From a virus, in IMG/VR virus record IMGVR_UViG_3300020214_000112, positions 1 through 25,211 of that record: DNA of 25,211 nt; one strand, 5' to 3'. The notes below the pieces were generated by a model. The model worked only from the letters and a program-made list of their open reading frames with translations. It made no database searches and was not told the origin of the DNA. The translations under genes and the position numbers were made by a program. Every line of letters begins with the position of its first letter. Positions within the stretch are counted from its first letter, which is position 1. Shown one piece after another: positions 598 through 16,051 of this stretch.

Positions 598-604
598 TTA
601 CACT
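598..604 (-). promoter_or_regulatory. Candidate phage promoter element AGTGTAA
   Basis: On the minus strand the sequence AAAAGTGTAAATGTTA lies just upstream of the gene at 577, between it and the capsid terminator. The same AGTGTAA core occurs in the intergenic gaps upstream of the portal gene and the tail-tube-like gene. It may be a phage-specific promoter core; this is inference from three occurrences. Confidence 0.3.
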
Positions 605-617
605 TTTCTATTTTATA

Positions 618-654
618 AATGAAATAAAAAACCCGCCTCTTTCGAGGCGGGTTT
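618..654 (-). terminator. Intrinsic terminator after the major capsid gene
   Basis: On the minus strand an 11-bp perfect stem (AAACCCGCCTC paired with GAGGCGGGTTT) closes on a GAAA loop, a GNRA-type tetraloop in RNA, and is followed by TTTTTTATTTC. It begins 16 nt past the capsid stop codon. This is the clearest terminator in the minus-strand operon. Confidence 0.92.
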
Positions 655-670
655 GGTGGGTTTTTAAACC

Positions 671-1810
671 TTAGACGATCTTACCAACAAGAGCGCGAAC
701 ATCAAGGACTACACGCCCCTCTTCAAGAGAGCCGAAGTAGCCAATTTTGTTCTGGCGGATGCTGTATTGGTCATCGGCAACCAGATTGAACTCCGCATTG
801 GAGTCTGGATCAGTTGCGACAACGCGCAGTAAGGAATCACGGGTACGGTCAAGACCGACGAGGATTTCTGAAGCGTCTCCGTCGAATGCTCCCGAGCTAC
901 CACCAGCAGCTGTGGTGTAAGCTGTAGCACCAGCGGCAGTGTCGAAGATCGTGTTGAACTTCTGACCCTTGCCGAGTTCATTGAACTCAAGGATAGAAAC
1001 GCCATAGAAACTGGGAATGCCAGCGGCGCTATAAATAGCGCTGCGCATTTCGTCAGTAGCTGTAATTCCAACTGTCGAACCTGTGCCGCCAGTGGCTGTA
1101 ACTCCAGCAACGGTGTTGATGGGGTTGTAAGCCATTGCACGAATCTGCTCAACGATTTCTGGAGAAACCAGAAGATCGGTAAGGCCAGCGCGTGAACCAG
1201 TGGCAGGTGTACCCTTGGCCCATGATGTATTGATGCGCTTGGCTAGTGTGAGCAGTTCGTTCAAGTCAGCAAGAAGGAAGCGGCCAGAGGTGTTTGAACG
1301 CTGAACGTGCTTTTTGCTATTTGTGGTAGCGTTGGCAAGAGCAGTCATTGCCAGTGTGGCAGAGGTACGCTCCTGCTTGAGCAGGATTTCCTGAGCCATA
1401 CGGGTGAATGTCTTAGCTACAACGTCCATACGATGTTTGGCCGCATAACGGCGGTCAAACGAGAGGGCGCTGTCTAATGTATAAGTGGACAGCTTCATCT
1501 CGGAGACGGTTGGAAGAACCTGATTTGTGGGAAGACCACCAGCTACGGACTGCGAGTATACAGTGATGTAGTCCTCGTCAGTTACATCGTAATACAGGTC
1601 AAGAGGAATGCTGGGATTATCATCAGCGTTGTAAGAGAGGCTTGTGAACAGATTGCTCAGTGTAGGAGCATTGTTGATTACCTCTGCAAGAACGGGTCCG
1701 ATAAACTCAGCAAGTGCGACTTGAGCGTCATAAGCAACGGTGCGATTACGGCTGGCCATTGCTTTAACAAGCTCAATTTGTTCTGGAGTGCGCTTTAATG
1801 TGATTTTCAT
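671..1810 (-). CDS. Major capsid protein (probable)
   Basis: The 379-residue product has the length and position expected of a HK97-fold major capsid protein: it follows portal, protease/scaffold and a small decoration-like gene, and is directly followed by a strong terminator. The sequence is Ala/Gly/Thr-rich with no membrane segment. The N-terminal 40 residues (TPEQIELVKAMASRNR...) look helical, as in an N-arm that may be trimmed by the prohead protease, and a central stretch is Gly/Thr-rich (AGVTATGGTGSTVGI). The start is supported by AAAGGA 10 nt before the ATG. I recognise it by synteny and composition rather than by a diagnostic motif. It would form the icosahedral shell together with the product of the gene at 1831. 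Confidence 0.8.
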   Translation of the reverse strand: MKITLKRTPEQIELVKAMASRNRTVAYDAQVALAEFIGPVLAEVINNAPTLSNLFTSLSYNADDNPSIPLDLYYDVTDEDYITVYSQSVAGGLPTNQVLPTVSEMKLSTYTLDSALSFDRRYAAKHRMDVVAKTFTRMAQEILLKQERTSATLAMTALANATTNSKKHVQRSNTSGRFLLADLNELLTLAKRINTSWAKGTPATGSRAGLTDLLVSPEIVEQIRAMAYNPINTVAGVTATGGTGSTVGITATDEMRSAIYSAAGIPSFYGVSILEFNELGKGQKFNTIFDTAAGATAYTTAAGGSSGAFDGDASEILVGLDRTRDSLLRVVATDPDSNAEFNLVADDQYSIRQNKIGYFGSLEEGRVVLDVRALVGKIV

Positions 1811-4080: not shown

Positions 4081-6003
4081 TTATTTTACAGCAGAATGAT
4101 ATAAAATAGCCGCAGAATATTCATCAAGTAAAAATTCATCAGCCTTATCAAGAACAGATTGCATAGGGTGAAGTTTTTCTATTTCATCGACATTACCTAT
4201 GCATTTTTGCACGTTTGAAACCCAATCTTCTCTTAAACTTGACGCGATAACTTTTTTACAAAGTGTTATCACGTTTGATTGCTGATCTGAATTTAAAGAC
4301 GCTACTCCAAATTTCTTTGCGGTAAAGTCTTCCGCAGCTTTCATAAAGGCATCAATTTCATAAACAGTTGTTTGAATATCTTTTCTTGAGGCTGTTGTCC
4401 CAATTGGTCTTCCAGCACCAGACTCTTTTGGTATCGCGGTTGGAGTCGGTGCTGTGTCTTGAATCATTGGAACCCCGCCTATAATTGGATTGTAATACCC
4501 TTTCTCCCTATCTGAAACAAACTTTTCTTGCGCGGGAGCAAGATCATTTGGATTTGGAAGCTTACCATTACTAATTGATTCAATGCCTTGTTCTGGAGTA
4601 AGAATGCCAATTTCCATTAAACGGCTAATAGTCCTCATGTACTGGGTTTCATCTTTTAAGTCAATCTCAGTAAATTTCGCCATAGGCCAAGTGCGAAACC
4701 CCAAATCTTTTGAAATGCGAATAATTTCTGGCTGAAGAACATCATTTAGAAAAGCATTTCTAGCTTCTTTCAAGCGCTCCATAAAAAAGCTAATTTTCGC
4801 GCTTTGACCGTTATATTTCTCATTACCAAGCATAACGTTCATCAAACCTTCCTTAATGTCTTCGTTTAAAACTTCATATTTTTCTTTACCGATAACTTTT
4901 TTTAGATCAGGAATTATGAAATCAGCCTTTGTTGTATAATCGGAAACAAGAACGCGACCAACGCTTTCGTTCATAAATAAGTTTTGCATAGCTGTCATGT
5001 TGGCGGGATTAATTCCACCCTTGTCTGGTTCTGCTCCCATCGTAATTAACAAAATTACGTTTTCCACAGTACGAGCAATAGCTTGATCGATGCGTTTTAA
5101 TTCGATTTTTGCGTTAATATCTTCAAGAACAGGATAAGAGAAAGGAACCGCAAATGGCTCATAATCTTGTTTTTTATAAAAAGAATAAAGTAAATATTTT
5201 GGGTCAAGTTTCATTTTCAAACCATCTCTGAAATACTGTTTACCTTTGATTTGTTTTTGAACCTCTGGATCAAATCCATTAAGAAGTTCGACATCAGTAT
5301 CATCTTTGGGATTTTTTAGACGTTCGAGTTCATATTCGGAAAGAATTTTTTCGTAAACCGCTTCCGCAAACGAACTAGAAATCTTCGCGACAATGTCGTA
5401 TGGATTAATTAAAATATAACGAAGAGGAACTTTGTTGTTTTTTATGCCGTTTTCACTTAAACCAGAAAGTAGTTTAAAATCCTCTGCATTAAATTTACCG
5501 TCGATTCTATAGAGAAAAATATTTCCACTACGATAATATTCGCGAAAATATTGATCTTTTAATTTCCAAAGCTTGATTTTATTAAACCATTTTTGGAAAA
5601 ACTCCCTGCTTCTTTCAGTCCCCCCTTCAAGATAAACATCGGTATTCGCGAATTCAGTAGCTATATCTATAGTGTTTCTGACTATCGCGACATTAGCATA
5701 TGCTTTTTGACAAAGCATAATTGCGTCTCTTATATCTACTCCATCTTTTGTATATTCATAAGGCAAAAGTCCTTGACTTAAAAGCGAATATCTACCAATA
5801 TTAACATCTCTTCCATTTCTCGGAACTTTTGTTTTTGTTGAAGACTGGTTGTCTTTCGTCCTTGCGTATGAAGCCTGAGATATTTCTTTGTAGAAAGACT
5901 CTCCCATAAGTTTCGGCTCATAAGAAGCTTGAGAAACTTGAACAGTCTCGACTTTATTAAATTTAGTCCAATAATCAGATTTTTTATTATATTGGCGTGC
6001 CAT
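4081..6003 (-). CDS. Portal protein
   Basis: The 640-residue product lies directly after the large terminase in transcription order and before the protease/scaffold, the standard portal position. The length fits a myovirus-type portal. Typical traits are visible: an N-terminal helical region leading to 'VAIVRNTIDIATEFANTDVY' (residues about 105-125), a wing-like alpha/beta section, a long central helical stretch (DINAKIELKRIDQAIARTVEN) of the kind that lines the portal channel, and 'MNVMLGNEKYNGQ' in the clip/crown part. It forms the dodecameric ring through which DNA is packaged and to which the terminase docks. No Shine-Dalgarno sequence is obvious before the ATG; a candidate AGTGTAA element lies 17 nt upstream. 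Confidence 0.85.
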   Translation of the reverse strand: MARQYNKKSDYWTKFNKVETVQVSQASYEPKLMGESFYKEISQASYARTKDNQSSTKTKVPRNGRDVNIGRYSLLSQGLLPYEYTKDGVDIRDAIMLCQKAYANVAIVRNTIDIATEFANTDVYLEGGTERSREFFQKWFNKIKLWKLKDQYFREYYRSGNIFLYRIDGKFNAEDFKLLSGLSENGIKNNKVPLRYILINPYDIVAKISSSFAEAVYEKILSEYELERLKNPKDDTDVELLNGFDPEVQKQIKGKQYFRDGLKMKLDPKYLLYSFYKKQDYEPFAVPFSYPVLEDINAKIELKRIDQAIARTVENVILLITMGAEPDKGGINPANMTAMQNLFMNESVGRVLVSDYTTKADFIIPDLKKVIGKEKYEVLNEDIKEGLMNVMLGNEKYNGQSAKISFFMERLKEARNAFLNDVLQPEIIRISKDLGFRTWPMAKFTEIDLKDETQYMRTISRLMEIGILTPEQGIESISNGKLPNPNDLAPAQEKFVSDREKGYYNPIIGGVPMIQDTAPTPTAIPKESGAGRPIGTTASRKDIQTTVYEIDAFMKAAEDFTAKKFGVASLNSDQQSNVITLCKKVIASSLREDWVSNVQKCIGNVDEIEKLHPMQSVLDKADEFLLDEYSAAILYHSAVK

Positions 6004-6020: not shown

Positions 6021-6027
6021 TTACACT
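6021..6027 (-). promoter_or_regulatory. Candidate phage promoter element AGTGTAA
   Basis: On the minus strand TTTTAGTGTAACTTTTAAT lies in the 53-nt gap between terminase and portal, 17 nt before the portal ATG. It shares the AGTGTAA core with the elements at 598 and 12656. The function is inferred. Confidence 0.3.
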
Positions 6028-6056: not shown

Positions 6057-7925
6057 TTACCGAGCGAAAAACGGGGCAAATGTAGAAGTACTTTTTTCGA
6101 CTTTCACATCTATCATATCAAAATATACTTTAGTCATCCAATTACCTAAAACCAAACAGGAGTAAGAGTCTTTTCTCGTTTTTTCTGCTCCGCTTTGTTT
6201 TTTTAACTCTGGCGGCAAATCAAAACTCTGGTGTCCATTAGCCGTTGTTGTAGGCATTATAAGAGAGCATTGCGCTTTTACCAATTCTATCATATCAGCC
6301 TGATGGTCAACAAAATCGACCATTTTGGCTTCAATACTTTGGCTATCTTCTTGGTCTCGAATAAATTTTAAACTTTTAATTGGGATAGTTTTATTTTTTT
6401 GGGTGGTAAAATCATTATCGACCGCTTCTGCTCCAAAAAGAATTTTCCTATGGTCGAAGTTTGATTGCAGCAGCTCATTAGCATATCTAATCCATGAACT
6501 TGTTGGTATCCGCAAGTAACAAATTTTATTTGCGCTTTTGTTATATGCATTTCTTGCTTTTCTTAACTCATCTTGATAAATTTCTGGCGTATCAAAATCA
6601 GCTTCATATATCTTAATTTCAATTTTACTATTTTTAAATAATTCGCTTTCGTTTGCGGCGTTTATAAATTGTAATCCACCATTATAGTCACCACACATTG
6701 CAACAATATTAAAGTGATTAAATAAATAATAAAGATATTCAATATGTTTTCTCAAATTTGTTCCTGAAAGCGCATAGTTATGAACAAGAATTCCCTTTCG
6801 AGCCGCTTTATCAATTTTTATTATATTCATGGCAAAGTCGTCAGAAGATTCATTTTCTGCCCACGATGGGTCAAAGCTTAAAATATATTCGGCATTTTTT
6901 TCGCCAGCGACTTCAATTGACTGTCCTTCACCAGCTTTGATTGTGCATTCGTGCATTTTACTAAGTTTAAAATAACCAGACGAATCATCAACAAACTGTG
7001 AGCCAAATTCTCTTTTAAATTGCGATTCGGACATCGTTGCTTTAGCTTGAGTTAGTAAGCTCTCATCGTATAAACCGTTAGGAGCTACATCGTAAGAAAA
7101 ATGTAAAATTGCTCTACTAGCAGAAGCTTTAGCATTCTTTTCGGGGACCATTATCAAATCCTCGTACTGCTTGTATAATTTATACATATATTCAAACTGA
7201 TAAGACGCAGACGAAAGAACGACGATTTTATTATTAGGCCAAATAAATCTGTTCTCTTCTTTTAATTCTCCGCGTTTTATAAGCTCGGTCTCTAAATCAT
7301 AAACTTGTTTTCTTTCGGTCGGATTTTGAACAACAGAAAGAAACGGGATGATAACTTCATTGAAAATACGATCTGGCATTAGTAAAAATTCATCAATCAT
7401 CATACGGTGAAAACGAAAGCCACGAAGCTTTTCACCATCACCCAAAGGTAAACAAGTAATTTTGCTGCGCCCAATATCCATTGTCCATTCATCAGAGCTT
7501 TTGGATACTTTGGTGATACATTGTTTTAAAAATACCGCGTTAGGCTTTTCAGCGATCTCTTCTATCTTTCGGAAAATCATCTTTGCTTGACGGAATGTTT
7601 TACTAACAATGCCAATGTGTACGCCTTGATTTAATATCGCATCCAAAGAAGCGAACACTGCACAGGTAAAGCTCTTTGATAATCCACGACTCCATACCAT
7701 CATAGAATAATCTGTTTCAAACATGGTTTTAATTGCCATGTGTTGAAATGGAAAAAGTTTGACGCCGCAAATAATCTCCGAAGAAAATGAAATATTTGAA
7801 CGCAAGAATTTGTAGAGAAGAATTTTGGCCTCTCTTTCTTCAAGAAATCCTCGCTTATTAAGAATTTCTTGATTTACGTTACGGAATAAGCCGTTTCTTT
7901 TTTGATTTCCTTCGATCCAAGCCAT
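6057..7925 (-). CDS. Terminase large subunit
   Basis: This is the ATPase-nuclease motor that cuts concatemeric DNA and drives it into the prohead through the portal. In the 622-residue product a deviant Walker A motif SRGLSKS lies at residues 79-85, Walker B MMIDEF at 175-180, a coupling motif VVLSSAS near 235-241, and the first nuclease aspartate in LSFDPSW near 352. I chose the ATG at 7925 because AAGGA precedes it by 7 nt; the longer frame reaches 7967 but opens with TTG. Even so it overlaps the ERCC4 nuclease gene by 52 nt. The Walker A lysine is present but the usual GxGK(S/T) is altered to RGLSKS, as in many phage terminases. Confidence 0.93.
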   Translation of the reverse strand: MAWIEGNQKRNGLFRNVNQEILNKRGFLEEREAKILLYKFLRSNISFSSEIICGVKLFPFQHMAIKTMFETDYSMMVWSRGLSKSFTCAVFASLDAILNQGVHIGIVSKTFRQAKMIFRKIEEIAEKPNAVFLKQCITKVSKSSDEWTMDIGRSKITCLPLGDGEKLRGFRFHRMMIDEFLLMPDRIFNEVIIPFLSVVQNPTERKQVYDLETELIKRGELKEENRFIWPNNKIVVLSSASYQFEYMYKLYKQYEDLIMVPEKNAKASASRAILHFSYDVAPNGLYDESLLTQAKATMSESQFKREFGSQFVDDSSGYFKLSKMHECTIKAGEGQSIEVAGEKNAEYILSFDPSWAENESSDDFAMNIIKIDKAARKGILVHNYALSGTNLRKHIEYLYYLFNHFNIVAMCGDYNGGLQFINAANESELFKNSKIEIKIYEADFDTPEIYQDELRKARNAYNKSANKICYLRIPTSSWIRYANELLQSNFDHRKILFGAEAVDNDFTTQKNKTIPIKSLKFIRDQEDSQSIEAKMVDFVDHQADMIELVKAQCSLIMPTTTANGHQSFDLPPELKKQSGAEKTRKDSYSCLVLGNWMTKVYFDMIDVKVEKSTSTFAPFFAR

Positions 7926-8851
7926 AATAAATCCTTGTCTAGAAAATATTGAACGTCCACGCCCCAAAGAAGACTGCCGATTGCAGTCAACTTGGGAATT
8001 AGAATTTCACTATTAGTTCTATTACCTGAAAATATAAATTGGCAATATCCCGCAAACTCATGTTGCAGCAATCTCATGTTGTGGTATATGAATTTCAAAT
8101 TCGCCTTATGAGGAGTAAAGTCGTTATTACTCTTTATACGTTCTAAAGTAGATTCGACAACTATAAACAAATAACATTCCATTTCCTTGCATCTTTGTAG
8201 CTCTCGCCTAAATCTATTCAAGTTATCTCCAACTAAAGTTCCTTTAAAATCAGATTCAGACTTTCTATCAACAAAAGTTTTTGTATAGTTGGCCCCACCA
8301 GCGGTATAGTCACCAAAATCTAATTTAACCTGTCTCTCTCTTTTGAAACTCAAGGGCTGCTGCTCTCTTGTATCAACAAAAATTTCAACGTCAGAAAAGT
8401 CTTCGCGAAATTTTTTAGGCAAACTTTTTCTAAACATAGTCTCAATTTTGATCTCGTCGCATATTGCAGAATATGAACCAAAATATTTTTTATAAAGATC
8501 AATAGTTGGCATATCACTAGTTTCCAACTCTAAATGACATGGTGCATATTTTAAATCTTTACTCTGCACCCTATACACTAGCATTTTTTTAATCTGCTCT
8601 CTTACCTTTTCTGGAGATTCTATTTCACACCACCTTAAAAGCTGCTCTCTATTTTCGAAATCTTTTTCGAAATATGACTCTTTGTCTTTAAACTGCAAAT
8701 AAGTCCCTGTTAAAAGATTTTTTCTTGGGTAATGAGTAGCGTAATACTCATTAATAGTAATCTTGTGCTTTTTTAAATGCGCGTGGAGACTCCTTTCTGA
8801 AGAAAAGGAACTGCGGCAAATTTTGCAGCAGTTAGAGTCGTTAGGTTGCAT
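7874..8851 (-). CDS. ERCC4-fold nuclease with N-terminal C2H2 zinc finger
   Basis: The 325-residue product starts with a classical zinc finger, C9-x2-C12-x12-H25-x3-H29. The middle carries the ERCC4/XPF nuclease signature: VDTRE at 159-163, GDY at 180-182 and VDRKS at 194-198 (the usual form is ERK). This family cuts branched or flapped DNA. The fold assignment rests on the three motifs in correct order and spacing. The gene is wedged between the unknown gene at 8841 and the large terminase, overlapping both (11 and 52 nt), so a link to packaging, such as clearing branches from replicating DNA before translocation, is a reasonable inference. A general recombination or repair role is the alternative. 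Confidence 0.82.
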   Translation of the reverse strand: MQPNDSNCCKICRSSFSSERSLHAHLKKHKITINEYYATHYPRKNLLTGTYLQFKDKESYFEKDFENREQLLRWCEIESPEKVREQIKKMLVYRVQSKDLKYAPCHLELETSDMPTIDLYKKYFGSYSAICDEIKIETMFRKSLPKKFREDFSDVEIFVDTREQQPLSFKRERQVKLDFGDYTAGGANYTKTFVDRKSESDFKGTLVGDNLNRFRRELQRCKEMECYLFIVVESTLERIKSNNDFTPHKANLKFIYHNMRLLQHEFAGYCQFIFSGNRTNSEILIPKLTAIGSLLWGVDVQYFLDKDLLWLGSKEIKKETAYSVT

Positions 8852-9905
8852 CGTCTAATGATATTCCTAATATACGAGCTTTCCATTCTACCATAGTCTC
8901 CATTTTTTTAGCTTCATCGATAACTAAAGACTTTTGCATTTCTGCAATTTTAATCATATTTGCTCGCTCTTCTTCGTCTTGAAAAAGTTGAACGATAGAA
9001 AGAATAGAGGCGTTTTCTTTTTGTTTGGAAGAAATTCTCTCGCGCCTGTCTCCTTGTAATTTTTTAATTAAGCTTTCTACTCGGCCTTCGCATTGATGAT
9101 ATTCACTGCTTTTGGCTTTTATAATTTCGGCCAAACGAATACTCATTTCATTCTGCTCTTGCGTCTCTTCAAACATTTTGTTAAGTTTGTCCAAGTGTCG
9201 AGAGATAGTTTCTAGATTGATAATCTCTTTGCAAACGTTCATATACAAATTAACTTCATCAGCAGTCAAATCAGGCTTGTCCCATGTCATGCGGATAAAT
9301 TCTTGCTCAAAAATATTCCTGTCATCTTCTGCGGTATAGCAATTTATAATCTTTTGAAATCTAGAATTCCCCAGATTAATAGAAAGTTTTTCCGCACACA
9401 TTTTGTGATGTCTGGTCAGTTTATCTTTATCTATTTTTTCTCCAGTTGCCTCATTAATTCGGTTAATAACTCTTTCTATTGATCGCGGCGTTTGGTATTT
9501 AACAAAAATGGCGTCGTCAGATACCCCATTGTTTTCGCAGCCAGAATTTCTAATATGAGCGGCAACAGTTCTATGCTCCAAACCCATTGTTGATATTGGC
9601 CTATCTGAATAAAGAAGTTCAGCAATTCTCAGGCTAGAAATGCCATTATTGGCTTGCTCTTCTATAAACTGTTCCTGTTCTGGGGTAAGGTGCAGATCTC
9701 CAACCTTTTCGTACTTTGACGTTTTATATTGTATTTTATTAGAAGCTAAAAGAGACCTTATCGCAATGCCTTGTTTTGTGCGCCCGTCTAGACTTTCGTC
9801 ATTAAAAAATTTGCGCGTAATACTATTTAAATCTGGAAACTCTTTTGATATTTCCAATATTTTCTTTTTGTCTTCTTCTGAAAAGCTTATTTTATTATTA
9901 ACCAC
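8841..9905 (-). CDS. Unknown DNA-associated protein, candidate small terminase
   Basis: I do not recognise this 354-residue protein. The N-terminal half has helix-turn-helix-like stretches (LTPEQEQFIEEQANNGISSL, then RTVAAHIRNSGC). The C-terminal third (residues about 225-340) is a Glu/Lys/Gln-rich helical region likely to form coiled coil. The start is a GTG with GAGGA about 9 nt upstream, inside the end of the sigma-like gene (8-nt overlap). DNA-binding N terminus, oligomer-forming C terminus and position two genes before the large terminase are consistent with a small terminase subunit, but it is long for that family and the call is only a positional inference. Confidence 0.45.
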   Translation of the reverse strand: MVNNKISFSEEDKKKILEISKEFPDLNSITRKFFNDESLDGRTKQGIAIRSLLASNKIQYKTSKYEKVGDLHLTPEQEQFIEEQANNGISSLRIAELLYSDRPISTMGLEHRTVAAHIRNSGCENNGVSDDAIFVKYQTPRSIERVINRINEATGEKIDKDKLTRHHKMCAEKLSINLGNSRFQKIINCYTAEDDRNIFEQEFIRMTWDKPDLTADEVNLYMNVCKEIINLETISRHLDKLNKMFEETQEQNEMSIRLAEIIKAKSSEYHQCEGRVESLIKKLQGDRRERISSKQKENASILSIVQLFQDEEERANMIKIAEMQKSLVIDEAKKMETMVEWKARILGISLDDAT

Positions 9906-10602
9906 CTAAAATATCCTCGTTTTGTAAAATTTTAATTGCGACTTGTTTAAATATTTTTTTAAGATTTTTGATCTGCTTATACCCAGCTTTCTTGCCCTTT
10001 TCATTTGTTTTGTATCCCATTTCTATCGCAACTTTTTCTTCATCTATCCCATCAATGTAAAGCCTAGAATAAACCTTATATTGTTTAGGCGCTAAACGAT
10101 GCTTCATTTCTTCGTGAAGTCTTGCCGCGCTACCTATAATATTAAAATTTAAATCTCTCATCTCTTGGATAGATTCAAAATGATTTTCTATAGAGACGGA
10201 AAGTTTAACATCATATGCGGCTTTCTTTGTTTTCTCCCATTTTCTATACAATTGGCATTCTGAACATTGTTTACCGCTTGGTGTGATAGAGCAAGCTGGG
10301 GGGTGATTACCCAAATTGAACTTACAAGATAAACATGGACGAACATAATTTGAATAATTATTTCGTAAAAGATTTTTAATTTGATTGACGGTGATGCGCG
10401 CAATCCAAGGCTCAAGTGGACGATCTTGTTTCCACATCTCCCATTTTTTGAAAATATGGAAACGAATTATTTGCGCGACATCTTCGTAATCCATCCAAGC
10501 AACGGCTTTAAGTTGCCAGATATACCTGTGCTTTTCTATGATTTTATCAACTACGTCTTGCTTATCTTCGTATTTAATCTTGTCTGACTTTTGTAGTTCC
10601 AT
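9898..10602 (-). CDS. Sigma-factor-like protein with zinc-binding insert
   Basis: The 234-residue product has a sigma region 2-like segment at about 38-80: MDYEDVAQIIRFHIF, then W...W, then PWIARITVNQIKNLLR, matching 'DL.Q......W.ria.N...d.lR'. A region 4-like helix-turn-helix lies at about 168-215 (LAPKQYKVYSRLYIDG...). Between them is a Cys cluster (C90, C93, C104, C113, C116) likely to hold zinc. This order is that of ECF or phage late sigma factors, which bring host RNA polymerase to phage promoters. Its place at the head of the packaging genes suggests control of late transcription. It overlaps the zinc-ribbon gene by 29 nt and the next gene by 8 nt. A plain DNA-binding protein remains possible. 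Confidence 0.68.
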   Translation of the reverse strand: MELQKSDKIKYEDKQDVVDKIIEKHRYIWQLKAVAWMDYEDVAQIIRFHIFKKWEMWKQDRPLEPWIARITVNQIKNLLRNNYSNYVRPCLSCKFNLGNHPPACSITPSGKQCSECQLYRKWEKTKKAAYDVKLSVSIENHFESIQEMRDLNFNIIGSAARLHEEMKHRLAPKQYKVYSRLYIDGIDEEKVAIEMGYKTNEKGKKAGYKQIKNLKKIFKQVAIKILQNEDILGG

Positions 10603-10945
10603 ATTTGGTAGGAGATAAGCTATCTATCCCACCAACTCTTTTTGGAGTAAATTTCCTTACTCCAGCTTGAGGGTTCCGCGATAAATCTTCTAAATTAAAA
10701 GCTCTGAATCCGCCCTCCATTTCAATCTCGACATCAAGATTATCTATGTGAGGGAGTTCGTTGATATTTGTATTATCTTCCGAATCTTCTTCTATATCAT
10801 CTTGATGTGTATTTCTACTTGGCTTTTTTTGTACTTGCGATGAAGCCTTGCCGTTCATAGGAGAACCGCATTTTGAACAAAAGTTTGGGGCGAAGCCGCT
10901 ATATTCGTGTTTCGCGCCGCAATTTGGACAGAAAGCGCTTGCCAT
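10574..10945 (-). CDS. Zinc-ribbon protein
   Basis: The 123-residue product opens with a four-Cys zinc ribbon: FCPNCGAKHEY followed by FCSKCGSPM, that is C6-x2-C9 and C22-x2-C25. The rest is acidic and low-complexity (EEDSEDNTNINE) with a short basic tail. Zinc-ribbon proteins of this kind often contact nucleic acid or RNA polymerase. As it is encoded directly upstream of and overlapping the sigma-like gene, a shared role in transcription is plausible but unproven. On the minus strand TATAAATT lies a few bases before its ATG, similar to a T4-type late promoter core. Confidence 0.6.
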   Translation of the reverse strand: MASAFCPNCGAKHEYSGFAPNFCSKCGSPMNGKASSQVQKKPSRNTHQDDIEEDSEDNTNINELPHIDNLDVEIEMEGGFRAFNLEDLSRNPQAGVRKFTPKRVGGIDSLSPTKYGTTKVRQD

Positions 10946-10962
10946 ATTAATTTATAAGTTTA
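10946..10962 (-). promoter_or_regulatory. Possible late promoter core TATAAATT
   Basis: On the minus strand the sequence is ACTTATAAATTAATATG, with the ATG of the zinc-ribbon gene at its end. It resembles the TATAAATA late promoter of T4-like phages but sits very close to the start codon. It lies in one of the few gaps (76 nt) in this operon. Any AT-rich gap could contain such a string, so confidence is low. Confidence 0.25.
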
Positions 10963-11021
10963 CTGTTGAGATTTTCTAGCTTTACCAATATTGTATTTGT
11001 ATATCGTTGAATTTCAATTTA

Positions 11022-11792
11022 TTAATTTGATTGTTCGAAAGGAACCCTGTTTTTCTTTATACCCTCTTCGTAATCGATGTTTTTAATTTTTCTGATAATA
11101 AATTTTAAAATTTCGCTGCGTTTTATATCTTCCTCTGTGAACTCGAACGAAAAAACTCCATGTCGCTCGGAATCTTCGTCTGAAAATAAATTGTAAAAGT
11201 CGAAAAATCCATTTTTACCCTTGATGTCTGATTGCATAAAATCTCCGCATAGGAAAATTTTACTCCCATCCCCGATTCTGGTAAGCAGGGTTGTGATTTC
11301 CTTGAATGTAAAATTTTGCACTTCATCTGCTATTATAATTTTATCTGTTAAAGTGCTACCTCTAAGGAAATTAATGGGAGTCGCAGAGATTGAACCAGCC
11401 TCTTTTAATCGGTGAGCGTCAATGGCTTCAATTATTTCTTGGACTTTGTCTTCAAGAGGAAGTAGGTATGGTTGAAACTTTTCACCAATTGTTCCTGGCA
11501 GCGAGCCAAGAGATTTTTCACCGCTTTCAGCGATTGTTCTAATATAGATAATATCTTTTTCATTGTGGTTGATGAGGTTGAGCGCCGCGTAGACTGCCAT
11601 AAAAGTCTTTGAAGTTCCCGCTGGTCCAGCGACAAAGACTATTTTGGTCTCGTCTCCTAAAAGTATTTTTAATAGCTGTTGTTGTTTATCAGTGAATTTG
11701 AATTTACGCTCTTTGAATTTTATTTCTGTTTTCATCTGCGGAATAATTACTTCCGAAGATGCCGACTTTGTTTTCTTGGGCTTTTTTGCCAT
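11022..11792 (-). CDS. PhoH-like P-loop ATPase
   Basis: The 256-residue product has Walker A GPAGTSKT at 56-63, Walker B-like KIIIADEVQNF near 151-161, and a sensor-like IFLCGDFMQSD further on, the layout of the PhoH family, which is common in phages. The family is a predicted ATPase related to helicase superfamily 1; its phage role is not established (RNA metabolism or phosphate-stress links have been proposed). The N-terminal 20 residues are Lys-rich and likely disordered. The gene starts 4 nt after the tail-tube-like gene, so they are co-transcribed and perhaps coupled. Confidence 0.88.
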   Translation of the reverse strand: MAKKPKKTKSASSEVIIPQMKTEIKFKERKFKFTDKQQQLLKILLGDETKIVFVAGPAGTSKTFMAVYAALNLINHNEKDIIYIRTIAESGEKSLGSLPGTIGEKFQPYLLPLEDKVQEIIEAIDAHRLKEAGSISATPINFLRGSTLTDKIIIADEVQNFTFKEITTLLTRIGDGSKIFLCGDFMQSDIKGKNGFFDFYNLFSDEDSERHGVFSFEFTEEDIKRSEILKFIIRKIKNIDYEEGIKKNRVPFEQSN

Positions 11793-11796
11793 AAAA

Positions 11797-12606
11797 TTAC
11801 ACCATCTCTTCGATTATCTGTAGCCCTCCTTTCGCTACACCGTTACTATCAATCGAAACTGTCTGAGAATTTAAAACACCAGACATGTAAAATGAATTTC
11901 CGTCTGCCATCGTTATTGAGCCAGAAACCGTTGTGTTAGGTTGAAAATCAGAAAGCCAATCAATATTGGATATACCATTTATTTGCAATGATTTTGTTAT
12001 TTTACTTACGCTAACTTTTGTTGGGTATGTGCTTCCTATTTCAAAATTAGCTGCTCTGTCGATCTCAATACTAAAATTTAAATTTTCGTACTCGTTAATT
12101 TGCTGCGTAAAATTAATTCCTGACAAATTAATTGTCATGTTTCTCAATGGAGAAATTACTCCTGTTTCAACTGTTTGACCGTCGTATACATATATACCAC
12201 TGCCTGTCGCAAGACCATAAGAATCAAACTGCATGTCTAAAAACATGGGCTTCCAAGGCTCAAGAGAAAAACTCATGCTTTTTAAAAAGCATTTGTCAAA
12301 TCTATACGAAGGTACATGAATAAAAGATCCACTTGTAAAATCTCCAGTTAATGCGAGAAATCCAGTGAATTGATTAACTCCAGCGCCTGTTACGGGCAAT
12401 ACTGTTGTAGACACAGACGAGCTTTTAGGCCCAGTTTGAATATAATAATCTAACTCTTGACCAATTCTTTTTATTCTTTTTAATTGAGTTGTATTATTGG
12501 CGTTAAAATTAGATGCGTATAATACGTTACAAACTCCTGTGCTTGTATTTTGCTCATCTCCATTGGACACAAATGCCCGAATATTATTATATGAAACGTA
12601 AGCCAT
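11797..12606 (-). CDS. Putative tail tube or related beta-rich tail protein
   Basis: The 269-residue product is Ser/Thr/Asn/Gly-rich, predicted beta-rich, with no membrane segment. The repeated pattern of long strands (e.g. KSMSFSLEPWKPMFLDMQF, then SIEIDRAANFEIGS, then KSLQINGIS) and the final 'SGVLNSQTVSIDSNGVAKGG' is reminiscent of phage tail-tube or related ring-forming beta-barrel proteins. The assignment is by general character only. It is the first gene of the minus-strand operon and lies back-to-back with the plus-strand metallophosphoesterase gene, so the promoter for the operon should lie in 12607-12714. Confidence 0.5.
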   Translation of the reverse strand: MAYVSYNNIRAFVSNGDEQNTSTGVCNVLYASNFNANNTTQLKRIKRIGQELDYYIQTGPKSSSVSTTVLPVTGAGVNQFTGFLALTGDFTSGSFIHVPSYRFDKCFLKSMSFSLEPWKPMFLDMQFDSYGLATGSGIYVYDGQTVETGVISPLRNMTINLSGINFTQQINEYENLNFSIEIDRAANFEIGSTYPTKVSVSKITKSLQINGISNIDWLSDFQPNTTVSGSITMADGNSFYMSGVLNSQTVSIDSNGVAKGGLQIIEEMV

Positions 12607-12655: not shown

Positions 12656-12662
12656 TTACACT
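12656..12662 (-). promoter_or_regulatory. Candidate promoter element AGTGTAA for the late operon
   Basis: On the minus strand AAAAAAGTGTAAATTATTAA lies 49 nt before the ATG of the first gene in the leftward operon, within the 108-nt divergent gap. It shares the AGTGTAA core with sites at 598 and 6021. The function is inferred. Confidence 0.35.
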
Positions 12663-12679: not shown

Positions 12680-12707
12680 TTGACAAAGGAAATTTTTAGA
12701 GTAAGAT
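12680..12707 (+). promoter_or_regulatory. Promoter TTGACA-N16-TAAGAT, 7 nt before ATG
   Basis: A consensus -35 box TTGACA (12680-12685), a 16-nt spacer and TAAGAT (12702-12707) end 7 nt before the ATG at 12715. Start of transcription would fall at or next to the ATG. The same geometry recurs upstream of several genes in 16.5-19.3 kb. Confidence 0.72.
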
Positions 12708-12714
12708 ATTTTTT

Positions 12715-13407
12715 ATGACTAGAATAGTCGTAATTTCAGACACTCATGGTAAGCATGGCGCTCCTTTGCCAGACGGAGACGTTCTCATACATTGTGGTGA
12801 TTTCTGCTCTCATGGCCAATACAAAGATGCAATCCAATTTTTGGGTTGGTTTCAAGCGCAACCCCACCAAAGAAAAATTTTTATTGCTGGAAACCATGAT
12901 CTTGTTTTTGAGCAAGGTTCGCACCATGATATTGAAATGCTCACGCATATCTTTTTGAATGATTCGACCCATTATCTCAACGATAGCGGCATCAACCTTT
13001 TCGGAATAAATTTTTGGGGTAGTCCTGTTCAACCTCGCTTCCTCAACTGGGCGTTCAACAGAGATAGAGGAGAGGATATTAAAAAGCATTGGGATAAAAT
13101 CCCAAGCGGCACCGACGTTCTCATTACTCATGGCCCACCTTACAAGATTTTAGACGAAGCTCCTCGCTCGAATTTTGGCTCTTATGAAAATGTGGGATGC
13201 AAAGATTTGCTAGATAAGGTTTTAAAAGTTAAACCTAAATTGCATGTCTTTGGTCATATCCACGCTTCAGGTGGTCAGATTTTTTCTACGGATCACACCA
13301 TTTACGCTAACGCCTCAATCTGCACTGAGGAATATGTTCCGCTCAACAAGCCTTTTATTTTCGACATTGACGAAAATAAGAATATCGATATTATAAATAT
13401 ACACTAA
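12715..13407 (+). CDS. Calcineurin-like metallophosphoesterase
   Basis: The 230-residue product carries all metal-site motifs of the calcineurin-like phosphoesterase superfamily: DTHG at 9-12, GDF at 28-30, GNHD at 59-62, THGPP at 138-142 and GHIH at 180-183. These coordinate two metal ions and hydrolyse phosphoesters. The substrate is not evident (nucleotide, nucleic acid 3'-phosphate or protein phosphate). The length and order fit small single-domain members. It is the first gene of the plus-strand accessory run and has a near-consensus promoter whose spacing predicts a leaderless mRNA. The next gene starts 1 nt after its stop. Confidence 0.92.
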   Translation: MTRIVVISDTHGKHGAPLPDGDVLIHCGDFCSHGQYKDAIQFLGWFQAQPHQRKIFIAGNHDLVFEQGSHHDIEMLTHIFLNDSTHYLNDSGINLFGINFWGSPVQPRFLNWAFNRDRGEDIKKHWDKIPSGTDVLITHGPPYKILDEAPRSNFGSYENVGCKDLLDKVLKVKPKLHVFGHIHASGGQIFSTDHTIYANASICTEEYVPLNKPFIFDIDENKNIDIINIH

Positions 13408-15920: not shown

Positions 15921-16051
15921 GTAACTTTACAATAATCAGCGGCTTTACTTTAAAAACTCCATACGAGTCAGAGGTAAAATTTCTTAAAGAATCTTTAAAA
16001 AAATTTTCTTTAACTGATGAGCCGCCCGGTTTCCAGGCTCAAGAAACATAA
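15917..16051 (+). pseudogene. Truncated glycosyltransferase-like gene start
   Basis: The frame starts in an ATGA overlap with the methyltransferase stop and codes for 44 residues. Residues 1-31 (SNFTIISGFTLKTPYES, then EVKFLKESLKKFSL) read like the first strand and helix of a family of nucleotide-sugar transferase-like proteins, which begin 'I.S.yT..TPY..Ev..L..SL.kF.L'. Then the sequence changes abruptly to TDEPPGFQAQET and stops. The base composition shifts at about the same place. I interpret it as a gene cut by recombination at about 16010; a genuine short protein is the alternative. Confidence 0.5.

Follow-up and report, generated by a model that had tools for sequence, protein, structure and literature searches.

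The sequence studied is a virus record of 25,211 nt (IMGVR_UViG_3300020214_000112), the whole of which, positions 1-25,211, is called the window below. Its minus strand carries a run of genes in the order p269, PhoH, ZnR, sigmaZ, p354, nuclease, terminase, portal-like protein, protease/scaffold candidate, 206-aa protein, capsid candidate and 131-aa protein. The main members are as follows.

11797..12606 (-): p269, which opens the run; no family match
11022..11792 (-): PhoH-like ATPase; Pfam PhoH, 7.6e-46
10574..10945 (-): ZnR, 123 aa, N-terminal zinc ribbon and acidic middle; ORF, present in the 25 loci examined
9898..10602 (-): sigmaZ, sigma-like protein of 234 aa; Pfam Sigma70_r2 and fold matches, relatives in at least 592 stretches of viral contigs
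8841..9905 (-): p354, a conserved partner that follows sigmaZ; no family matched, a small-terminase role being only a guess
7874..8851 (-): zinc-finger/ERCC4-type nuclease; phrog_3490, 4.6e-10
6057..7967 (-): terminase large subunit, start codon uncertain; Pfam Terminase_6N, 5.8e-9, and phrog_2, 3.4e-28
4081..6003 (-): portal-like protein, named from position and synteny; no family match
671..1810 (-): likely major capsid protein; weak match to phrog_1005, 0.025

This gene order is kept in 13 large near-relative loci, and more distant contigs keep it from PhoH or ZnR through the capsid gene. The exception is contig G023, where PhoH lies about 11 kb further upstream and ZnR gave no blast hit, yet an ORF with the Cys pattern is found at its place. 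The original prediction had the sigma-like and zinc-ribbon genes heading the packaging genes; they do belong to the run but are not strictly at its head, p269 and PhoH lying upstream on the same strand. Between PhoH and ZnR, relatives have a gap the size of a small ORF (L007, 9001-9310), which in the window is reduced to 76 nt (10946-11021) and holds a TTGAAA-16-TACAAT-like sequence. Near 16 kb the GC content of the window steps up, from about 35% to 48%, and the part beyond this step holds many short ORFs. A chimeric contig was rejected for the left part and the junction because relatives have genes from either side of it in the same order. One gene beyond the step, p234R, is present in 19 related loci, so that the step near position 16000 is probably real; the genes at the far right have few or no matches in relatives.

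The prediction that sigmaZ contains parts resembling sigma regions 2 and 4, to be checked by structure prediction, was borne out.

10345..10572 (-): sigma region 2, residues 11-86; Pfam and AlphaFold model, domain-level Foldseek matches to 5or5 (rmsd 3.6) and 8b3z (rmsd 3.6)
9916..10140 (-): sigma region 4-like helix-turn-helix, residues 155-229; fold matches 3hug_E and 6dxo_A

Pfam Sigma70_r2 matched residues 36-82 above its cut-off (E 8.2e-6, 26 bits against 24), and in each of the 20 records searched PF04542 matched at sigmaZ, in 19 of them above cut-off. Sigma70_r4_2 gave no match to sigmaZ, and region 4 is seen by fold alone. Two structural models were made. The first, built with 15 close sequences, had a pLDDT of 63.5 and a poorly modelled linker; the second, with 53 diverse sequences, reached 77.1, values under 50 being confined to residues 1-4 and 131-151. 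Their pTM was about 0.4, and the relative placement of the domains is not fixed by them. For each model, all 50 matches listed by Foldseek against the PDB were sigma factors, with weak E-values (best 8e-3 for the first model and 0.11 for the second), perhaps because the domain arrangement of sigmaZ differs. The PDB matches listed by a second structural comparison, in which rows below Z 8 may mean only common helical arrangements, were again all sigma factors. The region 4 part aligned with the -35 domain of SigL (3hug_E: Z 8.1, rmsd 2.8, 72 residues aligned) and with BldN (6dxo_A: Z 7.7, rmsd 1.5, 59 residues aligned, 25% identity). A sequence-profile search of the PDB returned nothing significant, the best E-values being 0.096 for a ribosomal protein and 0.52 for 5or5. 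From sequence and models, sigmaZ is most likely a phage-encoded initiation factor of the sigma70 family, of the two-domain type with region 2 and region 4. The alternative is a packaging protein, with a helix-turn-helix like that of small terminases, that merely resembles a sigma factor. The gene lies in the packaging operon and, in the large loci examined, a short way upstream of the large terminase, which would suit such a role. However, beyond the helix-turn-helix there is a region 2 that matches sigma factors both by Pfam and by fold, and p354 is an equally placed candidate for the small terminase; we regard this alternative as highly improbable.

The two sigma parts are separated by a linker of about 70 residues (about 87-154), the first half of which is rich in cysteines.

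10237..10344 (-): Cys-rich module, residues 87-122; invariant alignment columns, pLDDT about 67-84
10333-10335, 10324-10326, 10291-10293 and 10255-10257 (-): codons of C90, C93, C104 and C116, invariant in the 53-sequence alignment
10264-10266 (-): codon of C113, not invariant in that alignment

The five-Cys insert expected between the sigma parts is thus present (C90, C93, C104, C113 and C116). In the alignment of 53 sequences, which reaches down to about 40% identity, C113 is variable and the four others are invariant. Four invariant cysteines are the pattern of one four-Cys metal site, and the linker module of sigmaZ probably binds zinc.

The neighbouring ZnR gene, also expected to encode a zinc ribbon, shares a 29-bp overlap with sigmaZ. 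Its product combines a zinc ribbon with an acidic stretch and a tail that varies. Of 25 loci selected for sufficient sequence upstream, all 25 have an ORF with the CxxC...CxxC pattern directly before sigmaZ. Zinc anti-sigma (ZAS) proteins carry the motif HxxxCxxC, which differs from the CxxC...CxxC ribbon of ZnR. ZnR may be a co-activator or a chaperone.

Scans of viral contigs with three alignments, from each of which the best 80 relatives were kept, gave 300, at least 575 and at least 592 confirmed relatives of sigmaZ. Of the 13 stretches returned by a degenerate pattern search, 11 proved to be true distant homologues, with 39-48% identity. Four sigmaZ proteins had no real match among 50,697 phage records (E of at least 0.6 for that of the window, none for the other three). 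In the same records, the nearest terminases are about 25% identical to that of the window and its capsid candidate has no match. Among GTDB contigs, a first scan found no relative and a second one, made with the distant alignment, found two, in bacterial metagenome bins. The contig L295 (NZWA01000041.1), binned as a Flavobacteriales MAG, has a relative with 61% identity to the query from the distant clade, which is either a hint as to the host or a binning error. The sigmaZ phages are a widespread, uncultured, large aquatic lineage.

A short element, AGTGTAA, had been pointed out before three genes of the operon as a candidate recognition site.

12656..12662 (-): AGTGTAA, promoter-like element before p269, heading the p269-PhoH-ZnR-sigmaZ-p354-nuclease-terminase run; relatives have GTGTAA before their orthologue
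6021..6027 (-): AGTGTAA, promoter-like element in front of the portal-like gene; conserved in relatives
598..604 (-): AGTGTAA, promoter-like element in front of the 131-aa gene and behind a terminator; orthologues in relatives
626..653 (-): intrinsic terminator, a GC hairpin with a T run, following the capsid gene and shortly preceding 598-604; same arrangement in relatives

The window contains exactly three copies, all on the minus strand and all in gaps before genes (starting at 577, 6003 and 12606) that they precede on the right strand. Their number in the window is no excess: 1.88 copies were expected, and 29 of 100 shuffles reached three. Relatives keep the core GTGTAA at the same places with variable flanks; before the gene of contig G001 that corresponds to the 131-aa gene, it lies at exactly 20 nt in eight of eight orthologues.

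In each of 17 contigs all hexamers were ranked by their enrichment in the 60 bp preceding ORF starts, so that the motif was not preselected. GTGTAA came first in nine of them (G001, G002, G005, G007, G009, G011, G022, G023 and G025), third in G004, G010 and G024, fifth in G003, seventh in G008 and G019, the latter a short contig where the enrichment was weak, and tenth in G006; it was not among the hexamers listed for G012, another short contig (15 kb), which showed no enrichment. The proportion of copies lying upstream of starts was 16 of 36 in G001 (p 3e-14), 14 of 34 in the 116-kb G022, and 30 of 45 in G023 (p 2e-32), a contig whose sigmaZ shares 46% identity with that of the window. When ten relatives were pooled, GTGTAA was the most upstream-enriched hexamer (119 of 258 copies at most 60 bp upstream of starts, against 9.5 expected), followed only by words overlapping it. 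In the same ten contigs, the reverse complement gave 23 of 258 and the median of 89 anagrams was 1.06-fold. The first 50 kb of each of three control phages gave 0 of 22 copies upstream for Microcystis phage MaeS, 1 of 23 for Brevibacillus phage Sundance and, for phiEco32, in which no sigmaZ homologue was detected, 5 of 22 against 0.8 expected (rank 15); the top hexamers of all three resemble Shine-Dalgarno sequences. A chance or annotation artefact is rejected by the unselected ranking, the reverse complement, the anagrams and the control phages. The motif discovery that had been proposed as a check therefore shows a strong enrichment of GTGTAA at gene starts over the long contigs of relatives. 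With this enrichment and the sigma-like fold, neither of the two outcomes named as refuting the original proposal was obtained, and the proposal is supported in outline. The logo of 55 sites in 24 gene clusters reads GTGTAAATWW and contains no -35 or upstream activator signal. Among the papers listed by full-text literature searches, none describes a GTGTAA late promoter or a phage sigma factor with a zinc linker.

The distance between element and start codon is constrained. The 154 sites considered come from 14 contigs and, orthologues being included, do not count as independent. The start codon follows at 8-11 nt in 68 of them, of which 66 have no Shine-Dalgarno sequence, and at less than 8 nt in four. 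Such a sequence is present at 25 of the 41 sites located at 20-27 nt. In an unbiased positional scan of the 14 contigs, the sharpest peaks belonged to GTGTAA with the words overlapping it, to Shine-Dalgarno-like words 5-9 nt before the start and to TTGACA 28-31 nt before it. With the ATG at +1, a -35 box would lie where TTGACA does, so that both classes of promoter seem to give leaderless mRNAs. The alternative that GTGTAA is a translation signal is unlikely, given that the 8-11 nt class is devoid of Shine-Dalgarno sequences, that some sites lie directly behind terminators, and that TTGACA peaks at 28-31 nt. Taken together, the sequence data point to GTGTAA as a single-element promoter giving leaderless mRNAs. 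Initiation would take place about 8-9 nt past the hexamer, which would then occupy about -14 to -9, and many mRNAs would start at or beside the AUG; those with longer leaders would more often carry a Shine-Dalgarno sequence. In the window, the element of p269 lies 50 nt before the ATG, outside the usual spacing, in a divergent gap that holds both classes: AGTGTAA points leftward to p269 and a host-like promoter points rightward.

12680..12707 (+): TTGACA-16-TAAGAT, host-like promoter of the divergent gene 12715-13407, whose ATG lies 7 nt past the -10; also seen in relatives

Many, though not all, of the genes that follow the element are structural. In G001 it precedes a tail-fibre assembly gene, the tape-measure operon, the portal gene, the 131- and 113-aa genes, a tail-fibre gene, several genes without assigned function, and the minor-tail operon that runs to a central fibre J-like gene. 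(In the same contig, the protein encoded at 5225-6601 matches PHROG families called 'regulator of chromosome condensation'.) Of ten element-bearing genes of G023 compared with PHROGs, nine had no match. No GTGTAA is found directly upstream of the genes for DNA polymerase, helicase, primase, the RNR large subunit, UvsX and rIIA; the one before the Clp-like ATPase is only 2 nt from the ATG, too close to serve that gene. There are exceptions: gene 48 of G001 (143 aa), just before the replication block, has the element, and so does nrdB in G023. Orthologues of the G001 genes headed by GTGTAA, found for 12 of 16, keep it in 56 of 74 cases, against 0 of 27 for orthologues of 14 chosen control genes, some upstream windows being shifted where alignments did not start at residue 1. 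The signal before many structural and packaging genes points to a dedicated viral gene-expression switch. As for the proposal of a phage-specific late system distinct from the host-like promoters, the distinction holds, GTGTAA forming a separate class from the TTGACA/TAAGAT type, but exclusive lateness does not, in view of the nrdB and replication-block sites: with some non-structural genes bearing the element, 'middle/late' is safer than 'late'.

Which protein reads the element? We think it likely that sigmaZ recognises GTGTAA. The explanation that we favour, with a probability of roughly 0.7 for the whole, is that sigmaZ replaces the host sigma on the host RNA polymerase core and would direct it to GTGTAAATWW, with no -35 element, at the head of the packaging, head and tail operons and of some middle genes; early genes would use promoters of the TTGACA/TATAAT type read by the host sigma. 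Every motif-bearing contig has sigmaZ, as do all four relatives above 100 kb, but these contigs were chosen, and the four relatives found, through sigmaZ. The title of PDB entry 5or5, one of the region 2 matches, is that of an engineered sigmaE region 2 with GTAAAA, a sequence that resembles the second half of the phage motif; this is a hint only. The main rival reader is a second sigma-like protein of 193-209 aa, sigmaZ then serving another promoter class or the regulation of packaging. Such proteins, with partial or weak matches to sigma region 2, region 4 and phrog_351, were found in four of 18 contigs searched, including three of the four above 100 kb.

G001 35791-36372 (-): second sigma-like protein
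G004 606-1193 (+): second sigma-like protein
G023 102820-103449 (+): second sigma-like protein
G024 143757-144350 (-): second sigma-like protein

However, G022, which may be incomplete, has the motif and no full second sigma, only a 67-residue match inside a different, primary-like sigma. This mildly favours sigmaZ as the reader. We consider the second protein an unlikely candidate. Other sigma genes occur on these contigs: primary-like ones in G022 (4930-5820, Pfam regions 2, 3 and 4) and G024 (159316-160134, only region 2 being tested), and a separate ECF-type sigma in G010 (32930-33523, minus strand), with Pfam regions 2 and 4 above cut-off.

It could also be that a host alternative sigma, or the host holoenzyme remodelled by a phage activator such as ZnR, reads the element with the assistance of sigmaZ. 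Activators that appropriate the host sigma exist in other phages, and ZnR adjoins sigmaZ in all of the loci examined. This reading is nevertheless less probable still, for no -35 or activator signal accompanies GTGTAA, the motif is kept in contigs of 30-45% GC, the hosts of which probably differ, and sigmaZ has a region 2 of its own. A search for single-subunit phage RNA polymerases (PF00940) was negative in 11 of 11 records, but likewise in the control genomes, so that it does not show their absence. Recognition of GTGTAA by sigmaZ on the host core remains our preferred reading. It amounts to a programme of transcription that can be tested, with start nucleotides predicted, in a lineage that has no sigmaZ relative among the phage records cited above. 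GTGTAA also offers a simple promoter marker for the annotation of these uncultured genomes.

The late promoters of phage T4, used by gp55 and gp33, consist only of a -10-like element, TATAAATA, which resembles TGTAAATA, and a small partner protein is found in both systems. T4 gp55 has no region 4 and depends on gp33 as well as on the sliding clamp.

Another parallel is gp36 of phiEco32, a phage sigma factor for middle and late genes that uses the single-element promoter tAATGTAtA, with starts 6-8 bp downstream (PMC8948821). The 8-11 nt between GTGTAA and the ATG roughly agree with this, the starts being predicted ones. There are differences: gp36 has no detectable sequence relation to sigmaZ (hhalign probability 0.05%), it lacks region 4, of which sigmaZ has the fold, its element is not GTGTAA, and PMC8948821 mentions no zinc insert. 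The same source describes late-promoter phage sigmas that do have region 4, gp47 of phage 7-11 and the ECF sigma of GAP52, the second of which is among the viral structural matches of sigmaZ. The late promoters of 7-11 are bipartite, GTAAtg-(16)-aCTA (PMC8948821), unlike the single element and Cys-rich linker of the sigmaZ system.

The best fold matches are to ECF (group 4) sigmas such as SigL, SigH and sigmaE, which have regions 2 and 4 only (PMC6372665), regions 1.2 and 3 being absent. In contrast to their short linker, that of sigmaZ has about 70 residues and four invariant cysteines. Region 4 of sigmaZ is not matched by Pfam and, if GTGTAA is its promoter, the bipartite -35/-10 arrangement of ECF promoters is absent, in keeping with the lack of a -35 signal. 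In ECF initiation complexes, the linker between regions 2 and 4 enters the active-centre cleft and exits through the RNA exit channel, a task performed in archaea and eukaryotes by zinc-ribbon factors; why unrelated linker modules, these ribbons included, occupy the same channel is stated there to be unknown (PMC6372665). If a zinc sits in the sigmaZ linker inside the polymerase, it bears on this question. We tentatively suggest, as a speculation more likely wrong than right, that the linker module is the product of convergence on the TFIIB zinc ribbon/B-reader, adapted to starting leaderless phage mRNAs at single-element promoters, and that the system has an obligate second component in ZnR. 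Phage sigma factors and single-element promoters are already known; what sets the sigmaZ system apart is its zinc linker, which its closest functional parallels lack as far as we have seen, together with its fixed zinc-ribbon partner.
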